Shown here in pieces: positions 8,647-62,239 of a DNA stretch of 64,000 nucleotides. This DNA is from Methylobacterium durans (GTDB lineage Bacteria > Pseudomonadota > Alphaproteobacteria > Rhizobiales > Beijerinckiaceae). How positions within the stretch are numbered: the stretch's first letter is position 1; the number at the start of each line of letters is the position of its first letter. The stretch is from positions 6,712,001-6,776,000 of the forward strand of contig NZ_CP029550.1 of NCBI RefSeq assembly GCF_003173715.1. Direction: 5' to 3'. The notes beneath the pieces were generated by a model. That model saw nothing but the letters and a program-made list of their open reading frames with translations, did not search any database and was not told where the DNA came from. The translations under genes were made by a program, and so were the position numbers.

Positions 8647-8697
8647 GCGGGACCGGGCACAGAGAGGGAACGCTGCCCCGACGCTACGGCCATTCCG

Positions 8698-8712
8698 TTA
8701 ACGGCCATTTAA
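8698..8712. promoter_or_regulatory. Perfect CtrA-type box between ftsK and mtnA
   Basis: The 15 bases read TTAACGGCCATTTAA, an exact TTAA-N7-TTAA match to the binding site of the alphaproteobacterial cell-cycle regulator CtrA. It lies 52 bases upstream of the ftsK start codon and 122 bases upstream of mtnA, so ftsK is the likelier target. TTAA is rare in this G+C-rich sequence. Confidence 0.7.
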
Positions 8713-8833
8713 GGTTGAAGAAGCCTGACCATGTGCCGGTTCAAGGGCTTATGCCGGTTCCTCCGGCGTCCGGCCCCGCCACCGTCCTCCGGGACGGGTG
8801 CATTCGCGCGCCGGATATGCGAGACCGTGGCCC

Positions 8834-9931: not shown

Positions 9932-9941
9932 GACGGGCGCC

Positions 9942-10931: not shown

Positions 10932-10938
10932 CGCCGCC

Positions 10939-12036
10939 TCAGTTGGCGAAGCGGAAATGCAGCACGTCGCCGTCCTGCACCACGTAGTCCTTGCCCTCGA
11001 GCCGGAGCTTGCCGGCGTCCCGGGCGCCCGCCTCGCCCTTCAGCGCCGTGTAATCGGGATAGGCGATGGTCTCGGATCGGATGAAGCCCTTCTCGAAATC
11101 CGAGTGGATCACGCCGGCCGCCGCCGGCGCCCGGGTGCCCTTCGTGATGGTCCAGGCCCGGGCTTCCTTCGGTCCGACCGTGAAGTAGGTGATGAGGCCG
11201 AGGAGGTCGTAGCCTGCCCGGATCACCCGGTTGAGGCCGGGCTCCGCGAGCCCCACCGCCTCCAGGAACTCCGCCTGATCGGCCTGAGCCATCACCGCGA
11301 TCTCGCTCTCGATCTTGGCCGAGACCACCACCGCGACCGCGCCCTCCGCCTTGGCCCGGGCCATCACGGCGTCCGAATGGGCGTTGCCCTTGTCGGCGTC
11401 GCCCTCATCCACGTTGCAGACGTAGAGCACGGGCTTGGCCGTCATCAGGCCGAGCTGCTGGAACAGGCGCTCCTCCTCGGCCTTCCGCTCGACGAGGCGC
11501 GCCGGCTTGCCGTCGCGCAGGAGCGGCAGCGCGCGGTTGACGAGGTCGAGGAATTCCTTGGCCTCCTTGTCGGAGCCCTTGGCCTTCTTCTCCAGCGCCA
11601 CGACGCGCTTCTCCAGGCTCTCCAGGTCGGCGAGCATCAGCTCGGTCTCGATCGTCTCGATGTCGGCGGCCGGATCGACCTTGCCCTCGACGTGGGTGAC
11701 GTCGCCGTCCTCGAAGCAGCGCACCACGTGGGCGATGGCGTCGACCTCGCGGATGTTGGCCAGGAACTGGTTGCCGAGCCCCTCCCCCTTCGAGGCGCCG
11801 CGCACGAGCCCCGCGATGTCCACGAAAGTCAGCCGCGTCGGAATGATCTCCTTGGAGCTCGCGATCGCCGCAAGGGCGTCGAGGCGCTCGTCCGGCACCG
11901 CCACCTCGCCGACATTCGGCTCGATCGTGCAGAACGGGTAGTTCGCCGCCTGCGCGGCCGCGGTCTGCGTCAGCGCGTTGAAGAGGGTCGACTTGCCGAC
12001 GTTCGGCAGGCCGACGATGCCGCATTTGAAGCCCAT
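10939..12036 (-). CDS. ychF: Redox-regulated ATPase YchF (Obg-related)
   Basis: Universally conserved ribosome-associated P-loop NTPase of 365 residues. It has Walker A GLPNVGKST, switch segment PTRLTFVDIAGLV, and YVCNVDEGD, where NxxE replaces the usual NKxD and explains ATP rather than GTP preference in this family. The C-terminal TGS domain includes ITYFTVGPKEARAW and ends HFRFAN. The ATG at 12036 gives MGFKCGIVGLPNVGKS, the standard N terminus; the frame is open further upstream but that part is not YchF-like. It follows the PIN/antitoxin pair and pth on the same strand. Confidence 0.95.
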   Translation of the reverse strand: MGFKCGIVGLPNVGKSTLFNALTQTAAAQAANYPFCTIEPNVGEVAVPDERLDALAAIASSKEIIPTRLTFVDIAGLVRGASKGEGLGNQFLANIREVDAIAHVVRCFEDGDVTHVEGKVDPAADIETIETELMLADLESLEKRVVALEKKAKGSDKEAKEFLDLVNRALPLLRDGKPARLVERKAEEERLFQQLGLMTAKPVLYVCNVDEGDADKGNAHSDAVMARAKAEGAVAVVVSAKIESEIAVMAQADQAEFLEAVGLAEPGLNRVIRAGYDLLGLITYFTVGPKEARAWTITKGTRAPAAAGVIHSDFEKGFIRSETIAYPDYTALKGEAGARDAGKLRLEGKDYVVQDGDVLHFRFAN

Positions 12037-14158: not shown

Positions 14159-14373
14159 GGCGTGATCCTTTCGATGTGATGAGGTGAGAAACGCCGAAGG
14201 CCGCCCGAAACGGACGGCCTCGAACCGATCCCACGCGCCCGTGCCTCCAAGGGTGTCCGGCGGGCGCGGCGCCTCCATACAGGCTCGGGCGCCCCGATGC
14301 AAACCTGCGAGCCCGGATCAGTCCTGCCGCCGCGTGAGCGGTTTAGGGTGCTCGGCGGATGCCGCCTCACAAT

Positions 14374-14411
14374 GGCTTGGCGCGCAATCTTCGGCTTGGC
14401 GCGCAATCCTC
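14374..14411. repeat. Two tandem copies of a 19-base unit
   Basis: GGCTTGGCGCGCAATCTTC is followed at once by GGCTTGGCGCGCAATCCTC, with one difference in 19. It lies just before the AT-rich block upstream of the chemoreceptor gene. It could be a duplicated regulator site or simple replication slippage. Confidence 0.8.
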
Positions 14412-14480
14412 ATTCCGCAACAGAGATTAAGAGTTTTTTCGTTATCTTATGTTAATAAACACAATAAGCTCATTGGAATT

Positions 14481-14505
14481 CTGAAGGACAAATTTTGTCC
14501 TTCAG
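14481..14505. promoter_or_regulatory. 25-base perfect palindrome in the chemoreceptor leader
   Basis: Arms CTGAAGGACAAA and TTTGTCCTTCAG are perfect inverted repeats around one central T. The palindrome ends six bases before the AGAGGGGG ribosome-binding tract of the gene starting at 14528. It could be a dimeric-regulator operator or, as RNA, a leader hairpin beside the ribosome-binding site. No gene ends upstream on this strand, so it is not a terminator. Confidence 0.7.
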
Positions 14506-14527
14506 CATCAAGAGGGGGTTGTTGCTC

Positions 14528-16522
14528 ATGAAAATCGGGATCCGGTCGCGGCTCTACTCCGGCTTCGGTGCCCTCATCGCGCTCGGAGCGTCGCTTGGTG
14601 GCATAACATACTATCAGACCGGCAATCTCATCGGTCAGCACAAGGAGTTGGTCCGCATCGAGTCGAATGCGCGCGATCTCCTGGCGATCAACCGCTCGGC
14701 GGATCGTCTCAGCGGTCTCGCCGATGAGTTCCGGACCTCGCAGAAGGCCGAGAACATCGCCGCGATGAACGACGGCGCGGTCAACATGGCGACCATCGCC
14801 GGAAAGCTCGCTGCCGTGACGAAGTCCGATGAGCGGCGCGTGCTCTACGGCGCGGTCGTGCGCATCGCGGGCGACATCAAGGGTGACATCTCCCGCCTCG
14901 GTGCCCTCGGTGACGCGATCCGCACGAGCAAGGCGAAACTGTTCACCGGCGGCGACACTCTGACGAAGGCAACGAACGCCCTCGTCGCAGAGGTTCGCGC
15001 GGGTGGTTCAGCGGACGCGGTGAGCCGCGCGGGCGCCGCCGAGAGCGCGATCCTGCTCGTTCGCGTTGCCAACTGGCGCTATCTCGCGGTGCAGGACGCG
15101 AAAGGACCGGCGACCTTCACAACCAATATCGGGAAGGCCGAGGCTGCCCTCGGGGCGCTGGCCGAGCGGGTCGGCGATGGCCACGCGAAGGCGCTGGCGG
15201 CGGCGCGTGAGGCGCTCGGCGCCTACCGGGACAACTTCCAGGCCACTGCCGAGGCCATGACCCAGAGTGCCGACCTGTTCCAGCAAGGGTTCACGCCCAA
15301 GCTTCAGGCCATCATCGAGAGCGGCGCCCGCGCGCAGAAATCCATCGAGGGCTCCGTCGCCACGATCGACGAGGAGACGGCTGCCACGACAAGCGCCTTC
15401 CAGCTCACGCTGCTCGGCCTGGTCGGGCTCGTCGTGGTGCTTGGCACAGCCTTCGCCGCCCTGATCGCGCGCGGGATCATCCGGCCGATCCGCGGCATGA
15501 CGGCTGCGATGAGCCGGCTCGCGGCCGGAGACCTGCACGTCGACGTGCCTTCCCGGGACGCCGTCGACGAGATGGGCGAGATGGCCAAGGCCGTCGAGGT
15601 CTTTCGCGAGAACGCGGTCATCCGCGCCGAGATGGAGGCCCGGTCCGCCGCGGATCAATCCGCCCGCGAGCAACGCCTCGCGCGGCGCGACCACCTGCTG
15701 CAGGAATTCGAGCGGGGGGTCACTGGCTCGCTCCAGATCGTGACCTCCGCGGCCAACGAACTCGACGCAACCGCGCACTCGATGACCGGTGTCGCGCAGG
15801 ACACCAATCAGCGCGCCGTCGCCTCGAGTGCGGCCGCCGAGCAGACCTCCTCGAACGTCCAGACCGTCGCTGCGGCGACCGAGGAGATGGTGGCCTCGCT
15901 CGGCGAGATCGAGCGCAGCGTCGCCCGCTCGGCCGAGGTCGCGGGCGCGGCGCTCCGCGAGGCCGAGGCGACGAGCGGCTCCATGGACGCGCTGACCCGC
16001 GCCGCCGAGGAGATCGGCACCGCCGTCACCATGATCTCGGCAATCGCCGCGCAGACGAACCTGCTGGCGCTGAACGCAACGATCGAGGCGGCGCGCGCCG
16101 GCGAGGCGGGGCGCGGCTTCGCGGTCGTGGCGAGCGAGGTCAAGGAACTCGCGAGCCAGACCGCCCGCGCAACGGACGAGATCGCCTCGAAGATCGCGGC
16201 GATCCAGGCGGCGTCAGGCAGCGCCGCTACGGCGATCCGCCAGATCGGCCGGACCATCGTCTCGGTCAACGAGATCTCCAGCGTGATCGCGGCGACCATC
16301 GTCGAGCAGACGGCGACGACGAACGAGATCGCCCGCAACGTCGGCGAGGCCGCCCGCGGCACCGTGGACGTCTCCAACAACATCGCCCAGGTCTCGGCCT
16401 CGGCGAGCGAGACGGGCAGCGCCGCCGCACAGGTACTCGGTTCCGCTCAGGACCTCTCGACCCAGTCGCTCGCGCTCAAGCAGCAGGTCGACAGTTTCCT
16501 AGCCCAGATCCGCGCGGCCTGA
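14528..16522 (+). CDS. Methyl-accepting chemotaxis protein (HAMP and signalling domain)
   Basis: A 664-residue transmembrane chemoreceptor. TM1 lies near residues 10-30, a helical ligand-binding domain of about 260 residues follows, TM2 near 294-316, HAMP at about 317-370 ([20 protein letters not shown]), and a signalling coiled coil to the end. The hairpin tip holds [20 protein letters not shown] and [15 protein letters not shown] near 504-540, the CheA/CheW contact. The periplasmic part looks like a four-helix or HBM-type sensor, ligand unknown. The ATG at 14528 follows AGAGGGGG; an earlier TTG lies inside the palindrome. A rho-independent terminator follows the gene. Confidence 0.9.
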
Positions 16523-37915: not shown

Positions 37916-38983
37916 TCACGGCCGCCCGTCCGGATCGGCGCCGCGGCGCACCTGCTGCGCCCGCTTGAAGATCTCGTAGGCCCCGAGCATCGCGAGGGCG
38001 AGGATGAAGGGCACGAGGTAGTAGCAGACCCGGAACAGCAGCAGCGAGCCGAGCACCTGGTCCCGCGGCAGGCTGGACAGGGCGAGAAGGATCGTCGCCT
38101 CGAACACCCCGAGGCCGCCCGGCGCGTGGCTCGCGATGCCGAGCATGGCGGCGAGCACGTAGACGGCGAGGAATGTGGTGAAGCCGATCGTCAGGCCCGG
38201 CGGCAGCAGCACGTAGAGCACGGCCGCGGCGGCGCAGACGTCGCCGATGCCGACGAGCATCTGGCTGAAGGAGACCGAGGCGCCGGGCAGTTCCAGCCGC
38301 CAGCCCTTCACCTTCACGCTGCGCCGCTTGAGCGAGACCCAGGCGAGATAGCCGAGCACCGCGACGAGGGCGGCGAGGCCGACCCCCTGGTTCAGCCGGA
38401 TCGACGTGAAGGTCAGTCCCGCGAGCTGGCCCGCCTCGACGATGAGGCTGAGGCCCAGCACGACGCCCATGCCGAGCCAGAAGGTGAAGCCCGCGATCAC
38501 TGTGAGCGCGGCGATCTTCGGGGCTGACAGCCCTTCCCGGGAGTAGATCCAGTAGCGGATCGTTCCCGCCGTGAAGAGCGGGAAGCCTAGGGTGAAGCTC
38601 ACCGCGTAGCTCGTGAACGAGGCGAGCGCCGTGATGCGGTAACGGACCTTCACCTTGAGCTGGCGCAGCGCCAGCGCGTCGTAGCCGGTGAGGAACAGGT
38701 AGCTCACGCAGACGAACAGGAAGGCGAGGCCGAGCTGCTTCGAAGTCGCCGCCGTGAAGGCCGCGTGCAGCTCCGACCACGTGACGGTCTGGACGAGCTT
38801 CCACAGGACGCCGATCGACACCGCGAACAGGATCACGCTCGCGGCGGTGCCGATCCAGGCGTAGCGGCTCCGCATCCCCGAGGACCGGGCGACCTGCGGC
38901 ACGCCGGCGGCTTCCGCCGTCCGATCGGCCTCGATCGCCTCGGCGTCGTCGAGCGCCTTCTGATGCTGTCCGACAAAATTCAT
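37916..38983 (-). CDS. Lysylphosphatidylglycerol synthase-type membrane domain protein (UPF0104)
   Basis: A 355-residue integral membrane protein with about eight helices matching the flippase-like half of MprF: LGFPLFTAGTIRYWIYSREG, the family's central loop, and ASHAPGGLGVFEATILL. It has no lysyl-transferase domain. Family members move lipids or polyprenyl-linked material across the inner membrane; the substrate here is unknown. A G+C-rich hairpin separates it from the large inositol/YcaO operon upstream, so it is probably a separate unit leading into phoR. Confidence 0.82.
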   Translation of the reverse strand: MNFVGQHQKALDDAEAIEADRTAEAAGVPQVARSSGMRSRYAWIGTAASVILFAVSIGVLWKLVQTVTWSELHAAFTAATSKQLGLAFLFVCVSYLFLTGYDALALRQLKVKVRYRITALASFTSYAVSFTLGFPLFTAGTIRYWIYSREGLSAPKIAALTVIAGFTFWLGMGVVLGLSLIVEAGQLAGLTFTSIRLNQGVGLAALVAVLGYLAWVSLKRRSVKVKGWRLELPGASVSFSQMLVGIGDVCAAAAVLYVLLPPGLTIGFTTFLAVYVLAAMLGIASHAPGGLGVFEATILLALSSLPRDQVLGSLLLFRVCYYLVPFILALAMLGAYEIFKRAQQVRRGADPDGRP

Positions 38984-39174: not shown

Positions 39175-39813
39175 TCACCGTTGCATGAAGCGCAGGCCCG
39201 CGAGGTGAGCCGCGGCTTCGGACAGGCCCGTGCGGATGCGTTCGGCCACGCTCGGCGATGTGCAGACGTAGGTCGGGCTCGGATGCGGGATGGCGACGAC
39301 GGGCAGATCCGGCCGGAGCGCCGCGATCGCCGGCCGCGCCTCGCCGGCGAAGCGCCCGGCCAGGACCGCCACGGCGAGGTGCGGCAACAGGTCGAGGAGC
39401 GGCGCCAGATAGGCGGCCGCCGCCTTCGCTTCCACCCGGCGCGGTGCCCGGTTCAGGGCGCCCTCCGCGTGGATCACCCAGGGCACCGCGTTCCAGATCA
39501 GGGTGTCCCGGCGCGCGATGCCGGCCTCACGGAGGAAGCGGAACAGGTTGGCGGAGGTCCCCGTCGCGTTGTCGCGGGAGACGAAGCCGGTTCGGAAGAT
39601 CGCCGGGCCCGGCGTCTCGAGGAGCAGCAGCAGCCGCGCGCCGATGCCGCCGTCGAGTGGGTCGGGATCGGGCACCGGCGCCTGCCGCTCCGCCGCGATG
39701 GTGCGGGCCAGATCCCGCAGGGGCGCGAGATGGGGCGATCCGACGAGGGCGCGCCGCGCGGCGAGGATCGCCGGATCGGCGAGGCTCTTCGGCGCGTCGG
39801 GTTCAGTCGCCAT
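39175..39813 (-). CDS. Uracil-DNA glycosylase-like protein
   Basis: A 212-residue protein of the uracil-DNA glycosylase superfamily. The first motif is LLLLLETPGPAIFRTGFVSRDN (water-activating region), with NLFRFLREAGI and LIWNAVPW following, and the second motif AIPHPSPTYVC. No Fe-S Cys set of family 4 is visible. Its start overlaps the deacetylase gene by 11 bases, making it the last gene of the operon. A DNA repair role does not fit the operon; it could act on a related nucleobase-bearing substrate, but this is conjecture. Confidence 0.75.
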   Translation of the reverse strand: MATEPDAPKSLADPAILAARRALVGSPHLAPLRDLARTIAAERQAPVPDPDPLDGGIGARLLLLLETPGPAIFRTGFVSRDNATGTSANLFRFLREAGIARRDTLIWNAVPWVIHAEGALNRAPRRVEAKAAAAYLAPLLDLLPHLAVAVLAGRFAGEARPAIAALRPDLPVVAIPHPSPTYVCTSPSVAERIRTGLSEAAAHLAGLRFMQR

Positions 39814-40561
39814 CGTGCCCCGGGACGCCCGCCGGCAGGGTGCCGGAGACGCGGAAGCGCTCGACCCCACCCTCCTCGGAGAGCCGGCGGGACAGGCCCT
39901 CGCGCCCGCCGAACTGGAAGCCGATCTGCGTCCCGTAGGCCGCGCAGGCGGCCGCCTTGCGGACCTCGGCCGCCGGCGTCAGCCGGATCTCCCGCTCCCC
40001 GAGATCCGTGAAGCGGGCGCGCAGCGGCTCCTTCGGGGCGGCTTTGCGCACCGTGTAGGGGAAGTCGCGCCACCACAGGACCGGCAGCCTCGATCCGACG
40101 GCGTCGAGCGCCCGGACCATCTGGACGTGATCGACATGGCCACCGATCGCCTGAGGGCTCAGGAGAAGATCGGGCCGCACGGCCGCGACGAGATCGGCCA
40201 GGGCCCGAGCGAGATCCGGGACGATGGCATCGTCGTCCCGCGTCTCCTCGAACAGCTCGGGTGCCGAGCCGTAGCCGCGGTGCGGCGCCTCCCGGAACGG
40301 CAGGTGGGTCGGCGCGGCGATGCCGAGGGCCGCCGCCGCCGCCCGGTCCTCGTCGCGGCGAAGCGCCATGTAATCGACCTCCGCCGGCAGACCCTTGTCG
40401 AGCTGGCAGGCGAGCGCGAAGCCCTGCGGCTCGGGCACGCTGCCCGTGAACAGGGTCGCCATGACGACCTGCCAGCCGCCTTCAGCCAGCATCGCCAGCG
40501 TGCCGCCGCAGGAGAAGGCGGCATCGTCGAGATGGGGCGAGAGGGCGAGCGCAATGGGCAT
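39803..40561 (-). CDS. PIG-L/LmbE-family deacetylase
   Basis: A 252-residue zinc-dependent N-acetyl-sugar deacetylase. The metal motif is SPHLDDAAFSCGG near residues 9-21 and the third ligand lies in GGHVDHVQMVRAL near 140-150. MshB and GlcNAc-PI deacetylases of this family remove acetyl from GlcNAc bound to inositol. Here the gene follows a GT4 glycosyltransferase by 9 bases in an operon that starts with inositol-3-phosphate synthase, which strongly suggests a GlcNAc-inositol-like substrate. It overlaps the following gene. Confidence 0.85.
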   Translation of the reverse strand: MPIALALSPHLDDAAFSCGGTLAMLAEGGWQVVMATLFTGSVPEPQGFALACQLDKGLPAEVDYMALRRDEDRAAAAALGIAAPTHLPFREAPHRGYGSAPELFEETRDDDAIVPDLARALADLVAAVRPDLLLSPQAIGGHVDHVQMVRALDAVGSRLPVLWWRDFPYTVRKAAPKEPLRARFTDLGEREIRLTPAAEVRKAAACAAYGTQIGFQFGGREGLSRRLSEEGGVERFRVSGTLPAGVPGHDGD

Positions 40562-40570
40562 GGTGCCGGC

Positions 40571-41809
40571 CTAGAGGAGGTGCGGCTCCGCCCGGAACCG
40601 ACAGGACGGATCGACGGGCAGGTCCGGCGAGAAGCGCGTGTCCGGATGTGCACCCGCGATCTCGGCGTAGATCCCCATGATCTGGCGGCCGACCGTCTCC
40701 CAGGAATAGACCCGGCGGCACTCCTCCAGCCCCCCACCGGCGATGCGGCGGCGCAGCGCCGCGTCTTCGATCACGCGGGCGAGCGCGTCCGTGAGGGCGG
40801 CGACGTCGCCGGGCTCGGTCAGGAGCCCGTTCTCCCCGTCGCGCAGGCAATCGGAGACGCCGACCGAGTGGGTCGAGACCACGGCGAGCCCGGCCGCCAT
40901 CGCCTCCAGGATCGTGTTCGAGAAGCCCTCGGCGTAGGTCGGCGAGACGAAGACATCGGCCTGCCGGTAGAGGTCCGGCACGGTGGCGTAGTCGGCGTAG
41001 CCCGTGAAGCGAAGCCGCTCCTCGGGCAGGTCGCGCTCGGCGGCCCGCGCCTGCGCGGCCTCGACGTCGGGGCCGATGCCCGAGATCGTCGCGGCGAACG
41101 GCATGCCGCGATCGCGCAGGCGCCCGAGCGCGTCGACGAAATCGAGCACGCCTTTCCGCCGGTCGACGCGACCGTGATAGAGGAGACGAACCGGGCCGGC
41201 ATGCAGCTCGGGAAGCCCGTCCGCATGGGGCTGCGTGAAGCGCGCCGTGTCGACCGCGCCGGGCACGATGGTGAAGCGGCCCGGGTCGGTGCCGAGGCGC
41301 TCGCAGACCTCAGCCACGAAGGAGCGGCCGCCGATGAGGAGCGCGTTGGCGTGGTCGAGAACCGCGCACATGGCGCGCCGGTGCGTCTCGCAGCAGGAGC
41401 CGACCCAGTGGCCGTCTCCGCCCTGGATCGAGACCACGTTCGGCACGCCGAGCCGGCGGGAGGCCAGCAGGACCGCCCAGCCGGTCGGGTAGCCGTACTG
41501 CGCGTGCAGGACGTCGAAGGGCGCGCGCGCGTGCTCGGCCGCGATCGTCTCGACCATCGCCTCGACGTCGCGCTCGAAGTCGCCGCCCTCCTGCTCGCCG
41601 AGCTGCTCGAGGCCGATCACCCGAACGCCCGGCACGGGCGGGGGCGGGCCGCCGCCGTAGACGCGGGTGCCGAAGGCGTCGCCCCGGTACTGGCTGATCA
41701 TCGTCACGTCATGCCCGGCGCCGACGAGCTCGCGCAGGAGGTTCTGCGCGTAGACGCTCATGCCGGATATCGCCGGGAAGTAGCGCCGGCTGACGAAGCA
41801 GATCCTCAT
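40571..41809 (-). CDS. GT4-family glycosyltransferase
   Basis: A 412-residue GT-B retaining glycosyltransferase. The N-terminal domain has FPAISGMSVYAQNLLRELVG, and the nucleotide-sugar domain has YHGRVDRRKGVLDFVDAL and EGFSNTILEAMAAGLAVV (E-x7-E motif). The overall length and family are like MshA, which joins GlcNAc to inositol-3-phosphate, but acceptor specificity cannot be read directly. The ATG at 41809 overlaps the stop of the isomerase gene (ATGA). A Cys-rich spot (GSCCETHRRAMC) is unusual for GT4 proteins. Confidence 0.85.
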   Translation of the reverse strand: MRICFVSRRYFPAISGMSVYAQNLLRELVGAGHDVTMISQYRGDAFGTRVYGGGPPPPVPGVRVIGLEQLGEQEGGDFERDVEAMVETIAAEHARAPFDVLHAQYGYPTGWAVLLASRRLGVPNVVSIQGGDGHWVGSCCETHRRAMCAVLDHANALLIGGRSFVAEVCERLGTDPGRFTIVPGAVDTARFTQPHADGLPELHAGPVRLLYHGRVDRRKGVLDFVDALGRLRDRGMPFAATISGIGPDVEAAQARAAERDLPEERLRFTGYADYATVPDLYRQADVFVSPTYAEGFSNTILEAMAAGLAVVSTHSVGVSDCLRDGENGLLTEPGDVAALTDALARVIEDAALRRRIAGGGLEECRRVYSWETVGRQIMGIYAEIAGAHPDTRFSPDLPVDPSCRFRAEPHLL

Positions 41810-42684
41810 CGGACAGGGGTTTCCCGTACGGTCATGTCGGGCGGCGGCAAGTCCGGGCCCGGGCGTCGGCATTGCTTCAGGTATTCGATGGCGGCCGGAA
41901 TCATCGCGTCCGCCCGGTGGCTCTCGCGGGACAGCTCGACGCAGATGAGCTTGCCGAAATGGATCGCATCGAGGGCGTCGAGCACGCCCGGCACGTCCAT
42001 GTCACCCTCGCCGAAGGGCAGATGCACGTGGATGCCGCGCGCCATGTCCTCGATCGCCACGGTGCCGATGCGGGGCGCGAATTCGGCGACCGCCGCGGCG
42101 GGCTCGCGCTCGCCGGTGACGAGGCAGTGGCCGGTGTCGAGGGCGAGGCAGAGACCCTCCACCTGAAGCGCGGCGAAGTCGTCCAGGGTCTCGACCAGCA
42201 TGCCGGGCTCGGGCTCCAGGCAGGGCACGACGCCGTTCTCGCGGGCGTAGGCCACCACCTCCTGCAGCCCGTCCACCAGCCAGTGCCGCGCCTCCGCAGG
42301 GTCGATTCCGGGCTTCGGCACACCGGCCCAGAAGGACACGGCCTCGGATTTCAGGATCGCGCCGATCTCGATCGCCCGCTTCAGGAAGCCGATCCGGCGG
42401 GCGCGGCCCGTCGCGTCGGCCGTCACCAGGGTCGGCTCGTGCTTGGCCCGCGGATCGAGGAGGAAGCGGGCCCCGGTCTCGATCACCGAGCCGAGCCCAA
42501 GGCGCTCCAGGCGGCTCGCGACCCGCTCCGCCTCCCGCGCCCAGGTCTCGGCGAAGGGGTCGAGGTGGTGGATGTCGAGGGTGAGCGCGACGCCGTCGTA
42601 ACCGGCCCCGGCGATGAGGTCGATCGCGTCGTCGAGGCGGTGATTGGCCGCCCCGTTGGTGTTGTAGGCGAAGCGGAGACTCAT
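41806..42684 (-). CDS. Sugar phosphate isomerase/epimerase (TIM barrel, AP-endonuclease 2 fold)
   Basis: A 292-residue protein of the xylose isomerase-like TIM barrel group. Metal or substrate ligands are in GVALTLDIHHLD, CLEPEPGML, ALDTGHCLV, and GIHVHLPFGEGDMDV. Related folds include IolE/IolI inositol enzymes and EboE-type proteins. In this operon isomerisation or dehydration of an inositol-derived ketone is plausible. ATGA overlaps join it to the YcaO gene before and the glycosyltransferase gene after. Confidence 0.83.
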   Translation of the reverse strand: MSLRFAYNTNGAANHRLDDAIDLIAGAGYDGVALTLDIHHLDPFAETWAREAERVASRLERLGLGSVIETGARFLLDPRAKHEPTLVTADATGRARRIGFLKRAIEIGAILKSEAVSFWAGVPKPGIDPAEARHWLVDGLQEVVAYARENGVVPCLEPEPGMLVETLDDFAALQVEGLCLALDTGHCLVTGEREPAAAVAEFAPRIGTVAIEDMARGIHVHLPFGEGDMDVPGVLDALDAIHFGKLICVELSRESHRADAMIPAAIEYLKQCRRPGPDLPPPDMTVRETPVR

Positions 42685-44270
42685 GCGGCCCGTCCCCTCT
42701 GCTCCAGCCGGAACGGCGCGTGGTGCGATTCCGGCTCGCGGTAGAGGGGATAATGGCTGCCGACGATCTCCTCGGCCAGCGCCACGTCGAAGAGCGGCTG
42801 ACCGCCGAAGCGCTCGATCGCCTCGGGCGTCAGGCGGATCGGGCGCAGGGTCTCGCTCTGCGTGCCGAAGCGGACGAGGGGGTGATCGCGCTCGATGAGC
42901 TTCCGGGCGTTGCGCTCGCCGATCCGGTAATAGCTCATGGTCTCGACCTCGAGCCCCGGCACGATCGCCTTGACGACGCCCACCCCGCCGCGCGGCGGCG
43001 AGCAATCGACGTAGAGAACGTCGAACCCGGCCTCCAGAAGCCGCTCGCAGGCGATCGCGCCGCGGGCGTGCCCGTCGGCGGCGGGCGTCGTCGGCAGCTC
43101 CGCGAAGGCTTTCGTCGCGCGCTCGGAATAGACGGTGTCGGCGAGCACCGCGTGCAGATCCTCCGGCGGCAGCACGATCCATTCGAGCATGGCCTTCAGC
43201 GCCCGGCTCTCCTCCAGGTCTAGGCTCGGCAGGGCCTTCTCGATGAAGGCGTGGACGTAGCCCGGCGGCGTGACCCGCTCGGCGAAGGCGAGGGGCCCAT
43301 GGCCGAAGGCCTTGCGCACCCGCGCCGCCTGGAATTCGAGGAGCGCCTTGCGCAGGGCCCGCTCCCGGTCCGGGTCGCAGGCCTCGCCGCAGGCCGAGAG
43401 CGCGATCGGCGTCGGCGCGTCGGCGGGATTCCGGTCGTAGCCGACGACGTAGAGGTTCGTCAGGCCGAACTGGTCGGTGGCGAATTTCGGCAGGGCCCGG
43501 ATGCCGAGCGATTCCAGCCTTGCCAACATGCCTGAGGTCTCGGGCCCAAGCCCTTGCGAGAGATCGAGCATCACGCCCTGGTCGAGGGCGCGGAACAGGA
43601 GGCCGTTGCCGTCCCGCTGCAGCAGTTCCAGCACCCCGTGGCCGAGGGCGAAGGGCACGTCCGGCCCGGCGCCGAGCCCGTTCGTGATCAGGTTCGTGAA
43701 GGGCTTGTAACCCTCGGACAGCTCGAAATAATCCGTCGCCGCCACGTCGAGGGGCATCAGCACCGTCTCGCCGGTCGGGTGGCGGGTGGCGGCCGTCCAT
43801 TCGAGCACGGTGTCGCGGCCCACGGGCGAGCCCGCGGGCAGGCCGAGGGTGAGCGGGTCGGCGACGGAGCGGGCGCCGTGGACCCGCACGAGGTCGTTGT
43901 AGGACCCCCGCTCCTTCCTGCGCGGGATCAGCGCCAGCGAGGGCATCAGGTTCTCGGCGATCTCGGCCACCGCGCCGATAATCGCCTCGTCGTCGGTCGC
44001 CCCGTAGCCGATGCCGCTCGGCATGGCGCCGACGAAGTAGGGATCGTCGAGGAAGAGCGAGACGAACCAGACCGGGATCCCGGTCCGGTCGAGGGGCGCC
44101 AGGGGAAAGCCGACGATGCGCCCTTCCGGCAGCACGTCGAGATAGGCCCGCACGGGCTCCGGAAGGGATTGCGGCAGCCCGTCGATCCGGCGCTTCTGCC
44201 CGAACCGATAGGCGCGCGGCGCCTTCAGGCGGGCGTGGCGGGCGCGGTCGTCCTGATCAAGCTCGGTCAT
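42681..44270 (-). CDS. YcaO-domain protein
   Basis: A 529-residue protein with a YcaO ATP-binding domain in the N-terminal two thirds. Landmarks are SGIGYGATDDEAIIGAVAEI, TNGLGAGPDVPFALGHGVLEL and ERALRKALLEFQAARVRK, and near the end KAIVPGLEVETMS. YcaO enzymes activate an amide with ATP to form azolines, thioamides or amidines. No precursor peptide, TfuA, dehydrogenase or RiPP recognition protein is nearby, and the gap upstream is only 50 bases. A non-RiPP modification of a small amide is therefore inferred. Confidence 0.82.
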   Translation of the reverse strand: MTELDQDDRARHARLKAPRAYRFGQKRRIDGLPQSLPEPVRAYLDVLPEGRIVGFPLAPLDRTGIPVWFVSLFLDDPYFVGAMPSGIGYGATDDEAIIGAVAEIAENLMPSLALIPRRKERGSYNDLVRVHGARSVADPLTLGLPAGSPVGRDTVLEWTAATRHPTGETVLMPLDVAATDYFELSEGYKPFTNLITNGLGAGPDVPFALGHGVLELLQRDGNGLLFRALDQGVMLDLSQGLGPETSGMLARLESLGIRALPKFATDQFGLTNLYVVGYDRNPADAPTPIALSACGEACDPDRERALRKALLEFQAARVRKAFGHGPLAFAERVTPPGYVHAFIEKALPSLDLEESRALKAMLEWIVLPPEDLHAVLADTVYSERATKAFAELPTTPAADGHARGAIACERLLEAGFDVLYVDCSPPRGGVGVVKAIVPGLEVETMSYYRIGERNARKLIERDHPLVRFGTQSETLRPIRLTPEAIERFGGQPLFDVALAEEIVGSHYPLYREPESHHAPFRLEQRGRAA

Positions 44271-44320
44271 GGTCCTCGATAAACCCCGTTCCGCATCGCC
44301 GTACGGCCGTTGCCGTGCCC

Positions 44321-45352
44321 TCAGCGGCCCGCCAGCGGCCCTCCCCGGTGGCGCTCGCTCTCGTAGGCGTCCACCACGAGCCGCATCGTGTGCAGGTCGC
44401 GCTCGACCGAGTAGGCGCCGCGTTCCTCCGGGCGGCGCAGGGCCGAGCCGAAGGCGCGCACCTGCTCCAGGAAGGGCGAGGCCTGCGTGTCGAACGCGAT
44501 CTCCTCCGAGCGGCCGCCAGCGCCGTCCGTGAACGTCACCGTGCCGCCGGCCACCTGCCCCATCGTATCGATCGCGGTGAGCATGCCCCTGGTGCCCACC
44601 ACCTCCAGCCGGCGCCGGGGCAGCGCGTCGGGGCAATTGTAGGCGACGTGGAGGTTGGCGAGCACGCCCGCACCCGTGCGCCCGATCAGCAGGGCACCGT
44701 CGTCGACCGCGTAATCCTGCGCCCGGGCCTGGGTCAGGGCGACGATCTCGGCGATCGATTCGCCGGTGAGGAAGTCGACGAGGTCGATCCCGTGGGGGGC
44801 GAGGTCCATCAGCGCGCCGCCTCCCGCTTGGACGGGGTCGATGCGCCAGTTGTCGAGGCCCTCGACGGAGGTCCAGGCCCGATCCAGCCAGCAGGCATAG
44901 ACGATGCGCACCGCGGTCACGGTGCCGAGGCGGCCTGCCTCGATCAGGGCCCGCATGGCGCGGTGGCCGGGATGGTGGCGCTGGTCGAAGGCGGTGCCGT
45001 AGAAGATGCCGCTGCCGCGCACGGCTTCGGCCATCGCCTCGGCATCGCCGAGCCGCGCCGCCATCGGCTTCTCGCAGAGCACGGCCTTGCCGGCCCGGGA
45101 CAGCGCCACCACCGCCTCGCGATGCAGATGGTTCGGGGTGGCGACGTAGACGGCCTCGATCTCGGGGTCGGCCAGAAGCTCTGGAAGTGTCGCGTAAGCC
45201 CGCGCGCCCTCCGCGTCCGCCGCCTGGCGGGAACCCTCGCCCGGGTCGCAGACGGCGACGAGCCGATGCCCGGCAGCCCGGATGCCCGGCGCCATGTAGT
45301 CCCGGGCGACCCAGCCGTAGCCGACGATGCCCCAGCCGACGTTGTCGCCCAT
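44321..45352 (-). CDS. Gfo/Idh/MocA-family oxidoreductase
   Basis: A 343-residue NAD(P)-dependent oxidoreductase. The Rossmann motif is WGIVGYGWVARDYM near residues 6-19, followed by YVATPNHLHREAVVAL and CEKPMAARLGDAEAM with the catalytic Lys. GGGALMDLAPHGIDLVDFL gives the second domain's catalytic His. Family members include inositol 2-dehydrogenase and many amino-sugar enzymes. Its start shares a base with the stop of the methyltransferase gene (TGATG). Confidence 0.87.
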   Translation of the reverse strand: MGDNVGWGIVGYGWVARDYMAPGIRAAGHRLVAVCDPGEGSRQAADAEGARAYATLPELLADPEIEAVYVATPNHLHREAVVALSRAGKAVLCEKPMAARLGDAEAMAEAVRGSGIFYGTAFDQRHHPGHRAMRALIEAGRLGTVTAVRIVYACWLDRAWTSVEGLDNWRIDPVQAGGGALMDLAPHGIDLVDFLTGESIAEIVALTQARAQDYAVDDGALLIGRTGAGVLANLHVAYNCPDALPRRRLEVVGTRGMLTAIDTMGQVAGGTVTFTDGAGGRSEEIAFDTQASPFLEQVRAFGSALRRPEERGAYSVERDLHTMRLVVDAYESERHRGGPLAGR

Positions 45353-46547
45353 CACCAGCGCTCCGGCAGGTCGACGAATTCTCGCCGCCTCACGCGCTCG
45401 GCCTCGGGCGCGGTCGGAGGCCCGACCCAATCGAGCGCGTCCGGTCCCTCCGAGCGCATCGGGTAGGTGACGATGGCGGCGTATTCCTGCTCGTAGCGCT
45501 CCGACGGCCATCGGATCTCGTACGCGCCGGCCCCGTCCGGCGCGTAGAGCGGGTTCAGGCGCAGATGCGTGCCCTCCCGCGGCAGGGTCAGGCCGTCGAC
45601 GATCGCGCGCGGCGCCGGGCGCATCCCCGGACCCGCCACCACCGAGAAGGCCTCGCAGCCCCGGATCTCGGCCGGCAGGCGGGGCGCGGGGGCGCGGGTC
45701 TCCACGAGGGCCTGGGTCAGCTCGGCGTCGTCGTAGACGAGGGCGTCCGGGAACAGCTCCTCGATCTCCTCCGCCGAGACGGCCCGGCCCGCCGAGAAGC
45801 CCGGGCGGTCGCTGTTGTGGATGTGGCTCAAGGCCAGCCAGCCGTCATCGCCCGCGTTCTGGCGCAGGCATTCGAGCAGACCCGCCTTGTCGTCGAGGAA
45901 ATAGAAGGCGTCGTTGCAGACGACGAGATCGACCGGCGCGCCGCTGACGGGCCAGTGGGGCGAGGCCGCGTCGAAGCAGACGAGCTGCGCGCCCTCCCCA
46001 CCACCCAGTGGCGGGCGACCCAGAGCTTGGCGAAGACCACGTCCGCACCCGCGACCTTGGCGCCGTGGCGCCTCAATTCGCGCAGGTAATGCCCGATGCC
46101 GCAGGCGAACTCGAAGACGCAGGCCGGGCCGTTCCAGTGCGCCTCCAGCAGGGCGAGGCCGGCCAGGAAGGTCGGGTCGCTCCAGCGGTGCAGGAAGTAG
46201 TCGCCGACGCGGCCCCAGCCGAGGAGGCGGACCGCGTCCCGCAGGCTGGCCTCCTCGCGACCGTGCACGAGGGCCGCGAGATCGGCCGGGTCCGCCGGCG
46301 GGCCGTTCCACCAATCGTCCTGGTCGGCGAGCAGCGCCACGAGCGCCTTCTCGCGGCCGTTCTCCGCACCCGCATCGTCGAGATGCGCCAGGACCTCGGC
46401 GATGAGGCCGTCCCGGCCGATGCGCAGGTACGGTATGCCGTCGATCACCGGCCAGCGCGCGCCGGTCTCGGCGTCGCGCAGCGAGTGCGGCGTGTCGGAG
46501 CGGAGCGCGTTGCCGGTCTCGGGCGAGGTCAGGGTGAAGGGGATCAT
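45352..46547 (-). CDS. Class I SAM-dependent methyltransferase, frame broken at a G/C run
   Basis: The N-terminal 45 residues resemble a Trm112-like unit (PETGNALRSD...WPVIDGIPYLR) without its zinc Cys. The SAM motif I is VFEFACGIGHYL, then GADVVFAKLWVARHWVVG. After VVG (45996-45999, four C on the plus strand) the frame is lost and resumes as EGAQLVCFDAASPHWPV, then DLVVCNDAFYFLDDKAGLL. One more base in the run restores about 398 residues. The C-terminal 150 residues are unlike standard methyltransferases. The start is uncertain: a GTG at 46583 overlaps the upstream stop, while the ATG at 46547 starts the recognisable domain. Confidence 0.78.
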
Positions 46548-46579
46548 GCTCTCTCTACCCGCCCCCGTCGCGTTTGCGA

Positions 46580-47497
46580 TCACGGGATGCGCATATCCTT
46601 CAGCACCCGATCATGGAACCCCTTCACCGGCCCGGCATGGACGAGTTCCATCTCGCCGAGCACGGTCTCCATGGTGAGCGAGGCGGCGCGCAGGTGCTGG
46701 GCGATCTGGAGGACCCGGTCGATCGCATCCGCCGCGTGGAAGGCGCGGCCCTCCGCGGTGGCGTCGTCGGGCAGAACCGCCCGCGCCCGCTCGATCGTCG
46801 CGCGCAGGGGCGGCTCGAGCGCGTCGAGCGCCCATTGCGTGGTCCGCGCCATGATCGGCCCGAGATGGTCGCCGAGCAGCATCTCGCCGGTGAAGCCCGC
46901 ATCCGGCATCGCCGCGTTGTGGAAATGGTGCGCCATCGCCGCCAGGAACACGGTGGTGGGGTCGGCCCGGTAGAACGGGCTCAGCACCACGCCGTAGACC
47001 GCGACCATCAGGCAGTGCTCAGCGTGATTCTCCGGCGGCTCCAACAGGATGCGGGGCTTGCCCGGGCAGGTCACGCCCGCCCGCGGCTGCTGCGCCAGCG
47101 CCGCGACGAAACCCGGCAGCGGACCGGCCACCAAGTTGTCCCGCTCTCGGAGCCGTTCACGCAGCCGTCCGCGCAGATCGGCCTCGACCTCGGGCGTCAC
47201 CGCTTCGAAGCCCGCGACCAGCACGTCGCCGATCGCGGCCTCGGAGAGGCCCGCTGCCGCCAGGAAGGCGTCGTCGAGGTCGCAGAGTCGGCAGGCGGCG
47301 AGCGTCTTGGCGGTGATCTCCAGGGCCACGGCCTCGGGATCGGCCCCGCCTGTCAGAGCGCTCCAGCCCTGCGCGAAGAGACGCTCCGCGACCGAGCCCG
47401 TCCGTCCGGCCGAGCGGACGCGCTTGAGGTCGTTCAGCTCGACGAGAAGCTCGCGGAGCGCGACGGGTGCTGCGGCGCCCTCGAACGGGCCCGGCAT
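46580..47497 (-). CDS. HD-domain-like protein of unknown function
   Basis: A 305-residue protein with an HD-superfamily pattern. His residues occur in PPENHAEHCLM (near 165), AAMAHHFHNAAMPD (near 186-199) and AFHAADAIDRVLQIAQHL (near 260-277). The usual His-Asp dyad appears as HHFHN, so the metal site is altered or uses another Asp. Myo-inositol oxygenase is an HD-fold diiron enzyme, and this gene directly follows inositol-3-phosphate synthase, but there is no specific MIOX signature. The ATG overlaps the upstream stop (TGATG). Confidence 0.6.
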   Translation of the reverse strand: MPGPFEGAAAPVALRELLVELNDLKRVRSAGRTGSVAERLFAQGWSALTGGADPEAVALEITAKTLAACRLCDLDDAFLAAAGLSEAAIGDVLVAGFEAVTPEVEADLRGRLRERLRERDNLVAGPLPGFVAALAQQPRAGVTCPGKPRILLEPPENHAEHCLMVAVYGVVLSPFYRADPTTVFLAAMAHHFHNAAMPDAGFTGEMLLGDHLGPIMARTTQWALDALEPPLRATIERARAVLPDDATAEGRAFHAADAIDRVLQIAQHLRAASLTMETVLGEMELVHAGPVKGFHDRVLKDMRIP

Positions 47498-48687
47498 CAG
47501 TGCACGCCGAGCCAGTCGAGCAGCATCTGCTCCTGCTTGCCGAAGGCGTGCTCCGGCCCGTGGCCGTTCTTCACCATCGGCGCCTTGAAGAAGGTCGAGA
47601 GCTGTTCCTGCACGCCGCCGTCGCCGCGCTTCTTGGCGAGGTCCAGCACGCGGGCGATCTCGATGACGAGCGGCGCGGCCAGGATCGAGTCCTTGCAGAG
47701 GAAGTTCACCTTGATCTGCATCCGCTGGCCAAGGAAGCCGGTGACGTCGATGTTGTCCCAGGCTTCCTTGTCGTCGCCGCGGGGACGGTAATAGTGGATG
47801 TGCACGAGGTGGTCCTCGACCGGGTAGCCGAGGATCGAGTCGAGCACCGTGCCCTTGGTGTTGAGCTTCGATTGCAGCGAGCTCGGATCGTTGAGGGCGA
47901 GGCCGTCGCGGTTGCCCAGGATGTTCGTCGAGAACCAGCCGTCGACATGGAGGGCGCGGGCCTTCAGCGCCGGCGCCAGCACCGTCTTCATCATGGTCTG
48001 GCCCGTCTTGCCGTCCTTGCCGGCGACCGGGACGTTGAGCTCGCGCGCGAGTTCCAGGAGAGCGGGGACGTCGGCCGCGACGCTCGGGGTGAAATTCGCG
48101 TACGGCACGCCGCTCTTGATCGCCGCGTAGGCGTAGAGCATCGCCGGGCTGATCGACTCGTCGCTCGCATCGAGACCCTTCTCGAAGGCGGCCGAGGAGT
48201 TCAGCACCGGCTCGCTGAGATCGGGCCAGCGCTCGGTCGAGGCGAGGTTGACGACGACCACCTCGTCGAGGTTGCTCTCCTGGCGGAACCGACGCAGGTC
48301 GTTGGCGATGATCGAGACCGTTTCGCGGTGATCCTTGGCGACGATGCGGTTGCCACCGTCGATGTTCTTGCAGAACTTGGCGCTGCCGACCGCCGGCCAG
48401 GGCGTGATGCCCTTCAGGACCTGGGCGCCGTTCTCGATGTCCTGCTTGGTGAGCACGCCGTGGCCCGCCGCGGCGGAGGCGAGGTCGTCGCTGTTGAGGT
48501 CCCAGCCGCCGAAGACGAGATCCTTGTAGTCGGCCATGCCGGCGACGGGGACGTTCGCGAGCGGCAGGCCGTCGAGCCTGTTCGATCCCGATTTGATCAT
48601 CTCGATGCCGGCGATCGCTGTGGTGGCGACGGCGCCACCCATGCCAACGAACGCAACGCCGACGCGGCGACCGGTCTGCATGCTCAT
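47497..48687 (-). CDS. ino1: Inositol-3-phosphate synthase
   Basis: A 396-residue NAD-dependent enzyme that cyclises glucose-6-phosphate to 1D-myo-inositol-3-phosphate. The Rossmann loop is GVAFVGMGGAVATTAIAGIE, and the catalytic region has NFTPSVAADVP, AGKDGKTGQTMMKTVLAP (two catalytic Lys) and GWFSTNILGNRDGLAL. Its length fits the prokaryotic form. It heads the long operon, with 311 bases of non-coding sequence upstream containing a perfect CtrA-type box. Inositol synthesis is uncommon in alphaproteobacteria, which makes the downstream genes more telling. Confidence 0.93.
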   Translation of the reverse strand: MSMQTGRRVGVAFVGMGGAVATTAIAGIEMIKSGSNRLDGLPLANVPVAGMADYKDLVFGGWDLNSDDLASAAAGHGVLTKQDIENGAQVLKGITPWPAVGSAKFCKNIDGGNRIVAKDHRETVSIIANDLRRFRQESNLDEVVVVNLASTERWPDLSEPVLNSSAAFEKGLDASDESISPAMLYAYAAIKSGVPYANFTPSVAADVPALLELARELNVPVAGKDGKTGQTMMKTVLAPALKARALHVDGWFSTNILGNRDGLALNDPSSLQSKLNTKGTVLDSILGYPVEDHLVHIHYYRPRGDDKEAWDNIDVTGFLGQRMQIKVNFLCKDSILAAPLVIEIARVLDLAKKRGDGGVQEQLSTFFKAPMVKNGHGPEHAFGKQEQMLLDWLGVH

Positions 48688-60506: not shown

Positions 60507-60619
60507 GCACGTCCGGCCCGGCAATCTCCGCCCGCCGAGGCCACCCAAATTGACACTTTTTGCGGGATGCCCCCGCTGTGCCCGGAATGTCGCAGCGCTA
60601 TGAACAAAATGTGCTCTAG

Positions 60620-62220
60620 CCCGTCTTATTCACCGGGCAGTGGCTTGCGGCGTGTTTTGGGCTGATGGCGCGCGGGATCGGGCGTCTGTTCTGACGCGTG
60701 TGGACCTGGATCGTTCTGTCAGCACTGGAGGGACGGGAGCGGGTTTGTGGGCATCACGGCCCCTTGGTTTAGCCAGGTGCTGGGCGAGCGTGTCCGCGAG
60801 ATGGCTCAGTAGGTCGCCTCAGGACAGGCGGCGGCGAAGGCGAGGCGAACCCGGCTGGCGGTCTCGCGGATGCGGGCGCCAAGCTTCAGGAGGCGCAGCC
60901 GGAGCGTGGCGAACTCGGCCGTGGCGAGGCGGTGCGCCTTCGGATGGCCTCACGCACGCTCAGCATCAGCCAGTAGGCCGCCGTGTGCAGGACGAGCCGC
61001 ATCTGGTTGGCGGCGGATGCCGGCACGAGGTACGGTCGGAGGCGAGCTGGCTCTTGTGCAAGCTTGATCAGGTTCTCGGCCTGTCCGCGGCACAGTACAG
61101 GTCGGCATAGAGCCATTCCGGCGTGCCGGTCGTGATGTTGTGACGACATAGCGGATGTCGAGGCCGAGCCGGGTCGCCTCGATACGGGCGGCGACGCGCC
61201 GCTCTTGCCGCCAGGATTTGCCGCGTGCGTGGTCTCGCAAAGCCCCGCACCGCATCCTCGTTGTCGATGGCTCGCACAACTCTGATGTGATCGGCCGTCT
61301 GTTCCACCTTGGCCGCCAGCGCTTTGGTGCCGGTCAACCGAAGACGTAAGCGACGCGGTTGTCCTCGCACCAGTCCATTGCCTCGGGCCGGCCGTAGTGG
61401 CCGTCGCCCCGGATGGTGATCGCGGTGTTGGGCCAGTGGCGGCGGATCGCCCGGACGAGGCGGCGCAGATGTCCACGCACTTCGCGGCCCGAGGGCGTCT
61501 TGCCCGGCCGCAGGATCATCGCGACCGGCGGCTGGTGCGGTGTCGTAGACGTGGATCGGCAGAAAGCAGCGCCATCGTGATGGGCGTTGAACAGCGACAG
61601 TTGCTGCTGGCCGTGCACCACGTCGCACGTGTCGTCGATGTCCAGGGTGACGGCGTCGGGCGGGACGGGGTAGCTGGCGCAGTAGAGGTCGACAGCACCC
61701 GCCCGAGCCGGATGAGGTCGCGCAGACCCGGCGTGTTCTCCAGCCGCGAGACGGTGGGCTGGCTCATCAGGTCGTGCCCGCTCTCGGGCAGGCGGCCGCA
61801 GGCGAGCTTGAAGGCGGGGTCGGCGCGCAGGTGGTCGAGGTCGTCCGATCCTCATACCCGCAGGCAATCGCCAGGATGCGCGCCAGCAGGATCTCGGGCA
61901 ACGGATGCAGAACCCGGCTGGGGTCACGACGGTCCGGGATCACAGCAGCGAGCTTGTCGGCAATGTCCAACCGCCGGGCGGCCTGGGCGAGCAGCAGGAC
62001 GCCGCCATCCGAGGTCAGGCGTCCGCCATCGAAGGCGGCTGTGAGCTTCTTGCCCCGAACGGATGGAAACGCGAACGGGAGACACGTAGGATCGGACATG
62101 GCGGCGTGGCAGGCTCGGTGCGATCTGAAGGCTTGGCGTCAGCACCCAATCCCTAAGCTACATCAATGCTTTATGCTACGCTCGCCACCCCAGATCCACC
62201 GTCCTCGTGAATAAGACGGG
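60620..62220. mobile_element. IS1380-family insertion sequence with perfect terminal repeats
   Basis: A 1601-base element with 14-base terminal inverted repeats CCCGTCTTATTCAC (60620-60633) and GTGAATAAGACGGG (62207-62220); outside these the symmetry extends by TAG/CTA. The flanks are CTAG (60616-60619) and CTAA (62221-62224), a likely 4-base target duplication with one change. The ends start with CCC as in IS1380 and the related piggyBac group. The only gene inside is a transposase with many frame breaks. The element sits 20 bases before a marR-type gene. Confidence 0.85.
60806..62099 (-). pseudogene. IS1380-family transposase, frame broken many times
   Basis: Reassembling frames gives a near complete DDE transposase of about 430 residues: N terminus KKLTAAFDGGRLTSDGGVLLL, then EILLARILAIACGYED, MSQPTVSRLENTPGLRDL, VTLDIDDTCDVVHGQQQLSL, IRGDGHYGRPEAMDWCEDNR, TGTPEWLYADLYC and LVLHTAAYWLMLSVREAI, ending AFAAACPEATY before a stop at 60806. 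At least seven single- or double-base losses break it, for example near 61847, 61693, 61562, 61530 and 61337. Protein between the breaks is well conserved and almost free of stops. Confidence 0.85.
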
Positions 62221-62239
62221 CTAATATGTTCTGATCAGG

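Follow-up and report, generated by a model that had tools for sequence, protein, structure and literature searches.

The window analysed here, a stretch of 64,000 nucleotides from Methylobacterium durans (contig NZ_CP029550.1, positions 6,712,001 to 6,776,000), carries on its minus strand, at 39175-48687, an operon of nine genes: ino1 for a putative myo-inositol-3-phosphate synthase (MIPS), followed by genes for an HD-like protein, an S-adenosylmethionine (SAM) methyltransferase, a Gfo/Idh oxidoreductase, a YcaO protein, a xylose-isomerase-like TIM barrel, a GT4 glycosyltransferase, a PIG-L deacetylase and a UDG-like protein. These genes are a conserved operon beyond a chance arrangement, and we propose, at a probability of roughly 0.4, that their dedicated product is a small molecule derived from inositol and glucosaminylated, which shields sun-exposed bacteria from ultraviolet (UV) light and is plausibly the ultraviolet A (UVA) absorber reported from Methylobacterium. 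Of the readings considered, a UV-protective product derived from inositol has the best support, and our confidence in it is moderate. As far as the open-licence literature of PubMed Central (PMC) was searched, the operon is uncharacterised: among the matches listed there was no account of it or of genes for the Methylobacterium UVA absorber, and nothing was found joining YcaO with spore photoproduct lyase (SPL) or M. extorquens with inositol-3-phosphate synthase. If the operon makes a UVA screen, the genes behind a sunscreen reported from a common genus of leaf dwellers would be at hand, UV-absorbing compounds of this kind would have a second biochemical route and, as far as we know, a YcaO would for the first time be seen to act on a small molecule; the YcaO chemistry known to us is on peptides and proteins. 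The operon may also account for the use that these bacteria make of de novo inositol.

Conserved gene order and linkage to de novo inositol synthesis

To follow the operon across genomes we assembled 99 loci, comprising the best 80 of 150 loci with YcaO relatives in named genomes, the window, two annotated plasmid regions, ten stretches from the same GTDB family and six from a second alphaproteobacterial family. All were picked via YcaO and most are from one genus, and the same DNA occurs twice in two cases (L084/L114 and L036/L115); the counts therefore describe linkage to YcaO rather than frequency. Of the 99 loci, 87 have the complete eight-gene core, from ino1 through the HD, methyltransferase, Gfo/Idh, YcaO, TIM barrel and GT4 genes to the PIG-L gene, with one order and a common strand, and because order and strand are kept to this extent we conclude that the arrangement is more than chance. 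Among the 12 exceptions, seven are contig ends (L009, L050, L051, L084, L111, L112 and L114), and in two Microvirga loci (L085 and L086) YcaO stands without other core genes nearby; the others are considered below. The UDG-like gene is linked to the core yet less constant: it is present in 78 loci, of which 73 have it on the operon strand and five, all from the second alphaproteobacterial family, have it in divergent orientation. A preliminary description made from the sequence of the window had postulated a single co-conserved operon and had suggested looking for the shared gene order in other genomes, and the comparison bears it out.

Linkage to inositol was assessed in 149 genomes of the window's GTDB family, with YcaO scored as present at E<=1e-40. 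YcaO is carried by 16 of the 149, including 7/7 of the window's genus, and Ino1 (PF07994) also occurs in 16: it is present in 15 of the 16 YcaO carriers, among them all seven own-genus genomes, versus one of the 133 others. The window's own genome has a single MIPS locus and no second one (the search returns the same locus twice via the contig-end repeat described below). Thus, de novo inositol synthesis is found in this sample almost only alongside the operon, which upholds the inositol link drawn in the preliminary description. With both MIPS Pfam domains, the ino1 product is predicted to be a myo-inositol phosphate synthase; against the model for mycothiol-type Ino1 (TIGR03450) it scores 42.2 bits, with a cut-off of 638.

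In wider sampling the operon YcaO is sparse, occurring in 6/398 genomes sampled across the phylum (all of the window's genus), in 3/385 sampled across the class and in 6/82 genomes of the family of one class-level carrier. Methylorubrum populi BJ001 is also among the sources listed for this YcaO. Near-complete copies of the operon lie on one Roseomonas plasmid and one Hymenobacter plasmid (the latter without the methyltransferase), and among the best 120 of 913 matches to the HD protein are relatives in Hymenobacter, Solirubrum puertoriconensis and Rubrobacter marinus. The bacteria that bear the operon come from leaves, air and soil. In midpoint-rooted trees of YcaO and Ino1, Hymenobacter groups with the second alphaproteobacterial family in both, and the placement of Roseomonas conflicts, YcaO grouping with the second alphaproteobacterial family and Ino1 lying nearer Methylobacterium. 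Because the operon is found on plasmids and in two phyla, the distribution suggests that it moved between distant groups by transfer, but neither of the two trees is evidence that the whole cassette was transferred just once. As a minor point, the YcaO of a metagenome-assembled contig titled Methylorubrum extorquens (L084) is just 63% identical to that of the window; the title is probably wrong, because the same DNA (L114) is present in a genome assigned to another genus.

Enzyme families and a possible route to the product

The YcaO protein is a predicted member of the YcaO superfamily in which E101, E104, E213, R217 and E310 (alignment numbering), positions that we take to bind ATP and Mg, are invariant in 14/14 sequences. 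It shares with the YcaO enzymes of ribosomally synthesised and post-translationally modified peptides (RiPPs) and of McrA thioamidation the domain itself, the conserved Glu and Arg positions and an alignment to MJ1094, its sole solved relative at E<=0.001. We therefore considered that it acts on a peptide or protein, either as part of a RiPP pathway or on a ribosomal protein, with the remaining genes forming a separate pathway. The known chemistry of the superfamily, public annotation that sometimes names the protein ribosomal protein S12 methylthiotransferase accessory factor and the Microvirga loci with YcaO away from other core genes are in line with such a role; however, the SagD-family model (74.8 bits, cut-off 219.25) and the McrA thioamidation model TIGR03266 (46 bits, cut-off 365) are missed by far, neither a TfuA nor an E1-like partner is among the Pfam families of the nine proteins, and YcaO sits inside a metabolic, sugar/cyclitol-type core in the 87 loci described above. 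Also, no precursor peptide was found in the stretch upstream of ino1, which is the stretch covered by the search: the twelve most shared small open reading frames there each prove to be the beginning of the divergent neighbour, and in distant loci some are common to 2 to 5 loci. We consider a peptide or protein substrate very improbable.

The combination of Ino1, GT4 and PIG-L is reminiscent of mycothiol synthesis, and the GT4 and PIG-L steps also of bacillithiol synthesis. An alternative is therefore that the operon makes a pseudodisaccharide of the glucosaminyl-inositol type for redox, osmotic or signalling purposes and that the UV genes discussed below co-occur with it through lifestyle alone. 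The nearest solved relatives of GT4 are Tll1590, PimA and MshA (58-82 bits), and both MshA and BshA are among its weak matches. Yet the scores stay far under the curated cut-offs, for GT4 against MshA (TIGR03449; 71.3 bits, cut-off 462.5) and BshA (TIGR03999; 69.4 bits, cut-off 273.7) as well as for PIG-L against MshB (TIGR03445; 22.4 bits, cut-off 224.35) and BshB1 (TIGR04001; 30.4 bits, cut-off 182.5). PIG-L has HxDD and HxxH-like motifs when read by eye, and its solved relatives at E<=0.001, four sequences, include 6iiy ('deacetylase'), Dbv21 and teicoplanin Orf2 and do not include MshB. Moreover, YcaO, Gfo/Idh, the TIM barrel and the methyltransferase are additional to the thiol pathways and have no known place in them, and no MshC or MshD family was detected by Pfam or NCBIfam in the nine operon proteins, to which the search for these two was confined. 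We regard a pseudodisaccharide of this type as unlikely. Assignments to mycothiol, bacillithiol, SagD-type or McrA-type systems were all rejected on their sub-threshold scores. Thus, the earlier view that the operon serves neither mycothiol nor a standard RiPP stands; the analogy to MshA and MshB that accompanied it is not supported in the form given. Dbv21 and Orf2 deacetylate a sugar, N-acetylglucosamine, on a natural product, namely a glycopeptide pseudoaglycone; the relationship is distant (about 62 bits over 226 residues) and, unlike in those systems, there are no glycopeptide genes at the operon.

GT4 and PIG-L could also act, together with an MdoH-like GT2, on a polymer or lipid, so that the operon would decorate a surface polysaccharide, glycolipid or glucan. 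An MdoH-like gene lies near the operon in eight loci, none of them Methylobacterium (L088 from Roseomonas at 14266-15828, L107, L120 and L126-L130), and six of these are all the loci of the second alphaproteobacterial family. The other 91 loci yielded no such gene, Pfam shows neither a polymerase nor a lipid-linked transferase family among the core proteins, and decoration leaves YcaO and Ino1 without explanation. We find this decidedly improbable.

For the oxidoreductase, IolG (TIGR04380) is the best of nine NCBIfam models at 111.5 bits, under its cut-off of 355, and the nearest solved chain is a 1,5-anhydro-D-fructose reductase. Ketose 3-epimerases and xylose isomerases make up most of the fold neighbours of the TIM barrel, which also include YcjR and AsbF; residues E157, D183, H219 and E250 of the barrel are invariant in 23/23 sequences and could be metal ligands. 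YcjS and YcjR epimerise a keto-sugar. In a variant of the route that is compatible with the other readings, Gfo/Idh and the TIM barrel would likewise epimerise a keto-sugar on the attached hexosamine, and no cyclohexenone would be formed from inositol. Both the prevalence of epimerases and isomerases among the fold neighbours, including the keto-glucoside epimerase YcjR, and the anhydrofructose reductase structure are consistent with this variant; on the other hand, the best model of the oxidoreductase is that of IolG, albeit under cut-off, and the fold matches include a dehydratase, AsbF, as well. The fold does not settle the reaction. We place the variant on the unlikely side, if well within reach.

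The HD protein of the window matched no Pfam or NCBIfam model, and its Roseomonas orthologue scores 21.7 bits against HD_3 with a cut-off of 22.5. The structure model of the window's protein (pLDDT 91) predicts an HD-domain fold, with a domain at residues 122-280 that resembles HDDC2, YfbR and OxsA. At the position of the His-Asp dyad the residues are H190-H191 in 38/38 aligned relatives. A weak profile alignment to PH0347 (HDLAE) pairs H191 with the dyad Asp of that protein, N194 with the Glu that follows, and H161, H190 and D257 with a His, a His and an Asp, respectively. Because the dyad is altered, a phosphatase role is doubtful. A MIOX-like oxygenase was rejected, as structure alignment puts HD proteins of the HDDC2 and YfbR type first; Foldseek gave no match at E<=0.001, with PhnZ at E 1.9.

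The methyltransferase, which is interrupted in the window, reaches at most 21.4 bits with its pieces (Pfam cut-off 27), and the Roseomonas orthologue scores 35.7 bits against Methyltransf_11 (cut-off 21.2); no solved-structure relative was found at E<=0.001. An anti-phage defence function was considered and rejected; among the nine proteins just one, represented by the methyltransferase of Methylobacterium segetis, matched a defence model (mads_2, 38 bits). A further gene, for an MBL-fold protein, separates Gfo/Idh from YcaO in nine of the loci (L087, L088, L108, L120 and L126-L130) and stands beside the operon in two (L107 and L110). The MBL-fold protein scores 26 bits in Roseomonas (cut-off 22.7) and 20 bits in Hymenobacter, has a cysteine-rich, rubredoxin-like N-terminus (16.1 bits, cut-off 26.5) and has no solved-structure relative at E<=0.01. 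Far from the operon in the window's genome (C1:881047-881882; L131-L133) there is a 41% match to this protein with one internal stop.

Based on these families, we suggest the following route to a UV-protective product. Ino1 would, from what is known of its family, convert glucose 6-phosphate to inositol phosphate, and the phosphate would be removed, perhaps by the HD protein. Gfo/Idh would oxidise the ring (or a sugar) to a keto form, which the TIM barrel would isomerise or dehydrate; in inositol breakdown IolG and IolE oxidise and dehydrate likewise. The methyltransferase might cap an enol or amine, and YcaO might activate a carbonyl oxygen with ATP and attach an amine, by analogy to the amidine-forming YcaO reactions that occur in RiPPs. 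Finally, GT4 would add a hexosamine, probably N-acetylated, the amine of which PIG-L would free.

In its most specific form, which we consider quite unlikely, the route would be an inositol-based counterpart of the mycosporine pathway. Oxidation and dehydration would turn inositol into a cyclohexenone, which would be methylated; a stand-alone YcaO would then O-phosphorylate the vinylogous acid or amide and join an amine to give a UVA-absorbing vinylogous amidine, to which GT4 and PIG-L would supply glucosamine. Methylobacterium and other sun-exposed bacteria would owe their UVA compound to this route. The mycosporine chromophore consists of a methylated keto-cyclitol coupled to an amine, and the idea of a sunscreen is attractive because the proposed product would match this chromophore and Methylobacterium has a reported UVA absorber. 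The mycosporine-like amino acid pathway is comparable in its logic alone, arriving at a polar UV absorber through an enzyme that forms a cyclitol, a methyltransferase and ATP-dependent joining of an amine. Its sugar phosphate cyclase of the dehydroquinate-synthase type and its ATP-grasp enzyme are absent among the Pfam families of the nine proteins, and MIPS and YcaO would replace them here. Passages of two articles cite a UVA-absorbing, avobenzone-like compound from Methylobacterium (PMC7821382, PMC7769811), a UVA absorber of the genus also appears in a passage of PMC12573535, and methylobamine is mentioned in one of PMC9664959. Another related system is the ebo operon (PMC5133447), which is described from many bacterial groups, encodes an enzyme that forms a cyclitol, a TIM barrel of the xylose-isomerase type and a hydrolase of phosphate-bearing substrates, and is discussed together with the sunscreen scytonemin, although its authors thought a direct role in scytonemin synthesis unlikely. 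The operon described here shares with it the spread over several groups, the cyclitol-forming enzyme and the TIM barrel; it differs in that neither the sugar phosphate cyclase EboD nor the UbiA prenyltransferase EboC has a counterpart among the Pfam families of the nine proteins, and in that the six families described for it include no YcaO, GT4 or PIG-L.

Association with UV-repair genes

The link to UV light comes from co-occurrence with repair genes and goes beyond the preliminary description, as do the MBL-fold gene, the altered HD site and the broken methyltransferase frame. In the family sample, UvdE is present in 13/16 YcaO carriers versus 7/133 other genomes (Fisher 2e-11), and the SPL family TIGR03886 in 10/16 versus 1/133 (Fisher 8e-11). 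Counted by genus, the figures are 4/5 versus 3/38 for UvdE (p 0.0013) and 3/5 versus 0/38 for TIGR03886 (p 0.0008). In the two Microvirga loci (L085 at 7844-11497, and L086), YcaO comes after a UvdE-like and an SPL-family gene, the three being consecutive on a single strand; another SPL gene lies at a distance of some kilobases, and the Microvirga YcaO nests among the operon YcaOs in the tree. Protein families were profiled in L085, in which the SPL-family protein scores 617.9 bits against TIGR03886 (cut-off 437.55). In Roseomonas, the operon is followed by the MdoH-like gene and then, on the opposite strand, by two SPL-family genes. Co-occurrence with UV genes can mirror a common sunlit habitat, which is itself compatible with a protective product.

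Several observations weigh against a UV-protective inositol-derived product. First, the association is partly phylogenetic and the tests model phylogeny incompletely: the window's own genus supplies 7/16 carriers, and without it UvdE is present in 6/9 carriers versus 7/133 others and TIGR03886 in 3/9 versus 1/133. Ectoine synthase, used as a control, occurs in 3/149 genomes and in none of the carriers, and is too rare to inform. Second, UvdE or SPL relatives lie near YcaO in just 3/99 loci (L085, L086 and L088; the window is not one of them), the UvdE-like protein of L085 is short (242 aa; PF03851 105 bits over profile positions 111-266 of 275) and falls under the cut-off of TIGR00629 (92.6 bits versus 124.45), and Ino1 was found in 0/2 Microvirga genomes in a search run without a positive control. 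Third, an EcfG-type promoter was found upstream in 2/91 loci compared with 1.25 in shuffles, which is a negative result. Fourth, single core genes are missing from some loci: the Hymenobacter locus L087 is without the methyltransferase, L110 is without ino1, and PIG-L was looked for in L113 and none was found. Finally, methylobamine and the operon match by taxon and role only, and we infer the order of the steps and every substrate.

Gene coordinates, assembly state and neighbouring features

An open-reading-frame check together with a Pfam profile search located all nine genes (Table 1). The families and the common strand given for them in the preliminary description were confirmed, seven scoring over their Pfam cut-offs and the HD protein and methyltransferase matching more weakly.

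Table 1. Genes of the operon from ino1 downstream; gene starts were chosen by comparing relatives.
Gene product	Position in the window	Strand	Details
ino1, myo-inositol-3-phosphate synthase	47497..48687	-	396 aa; PF07994 221 bits, PF01658 119 bits
HD-like protein	46580..47497	-	305 aa; HH replaces HD dyad
SAM methyltransferase	45352..46547 (about)	-	two partial frames; broken near 45990-46005
Gfo/Idh/MocA NAD(P) oxidoreductase	44321..45352	-	PF01408/PF22725, 96 and 95 bits
YcaO protein	42681..44270	-	529 aa; PF02624 147 bits, cut-off 25.7
Xylose-isomerase-like TIM barrel	41806..42684	-	292 aa; AP_endonuc_2 108 bits
GT4 glycosyltransferase	40571..41809	-	PF13692 115 bits
PIG-L deacetylase	39803..40561	-	PF02585 69 bits
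UDG-superfamily protein	39175..39813 (about)	-	PF03167 38 bits

Neighbouring genes overlap by 1, 1, 4, 4 and 11 bases, with gaps of 50 bases before YcaO and 9 before PIG-L. The junction between the HD and methyltransferase genes depends on the methyltransferase start, a GTG at 46583 giving a GTGA overlap and an ATG at 46547 a 32-base gap; we prefer the ATG as the probable start because the corresponding gap in M. segetis (L007) is 31 bases. Thus, the overlaps and the two gaps described earlier are upheld, and the HD/methyltransferase junction becomes a third gap unless the upstream GTG is used.

In the window the methyltransferase consists of two frames that meet at a frameshift, whereas in M. 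segetis, the closest relative (YcaO 97% identical), it is a single open frame of 398 aa. The start of the contig (G000:C1:1-38414) duplicates its end (window 36328-64000) at 99.8% identity with dozens of indels; therefore, the operon is one locus present twice in the assembly, the chromosome was left uncircularised, and genes in this region are double-counted in genome searches. Between 39101 and 48800, six indels of 1-3 bases set the two copies apart, every one missing from the start copy; one of these is inside the methyltransferase gene (45628) and none is at the frame break. Both a sequencing error and a recent mutation fit the break.

Downstream of the operon, a membrane protein gene at 37916-38983, presumably of the lysylphosphatidylglycerol-synthase/UPF0104 type, is present in most Methylobacterium loci compared; in a second comparison it was found in 1/11 loci, the Methylobacterium one only. 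A segment of 1.6 kb at 60617-62223 has perfect terminal inverted repeats of 17 bp and contains short frames that resemble transposases, and by its look we take it to be an IS1380-type element; it is present in the end copy of the repeat and absent from the start copy, and looks polymorphic.

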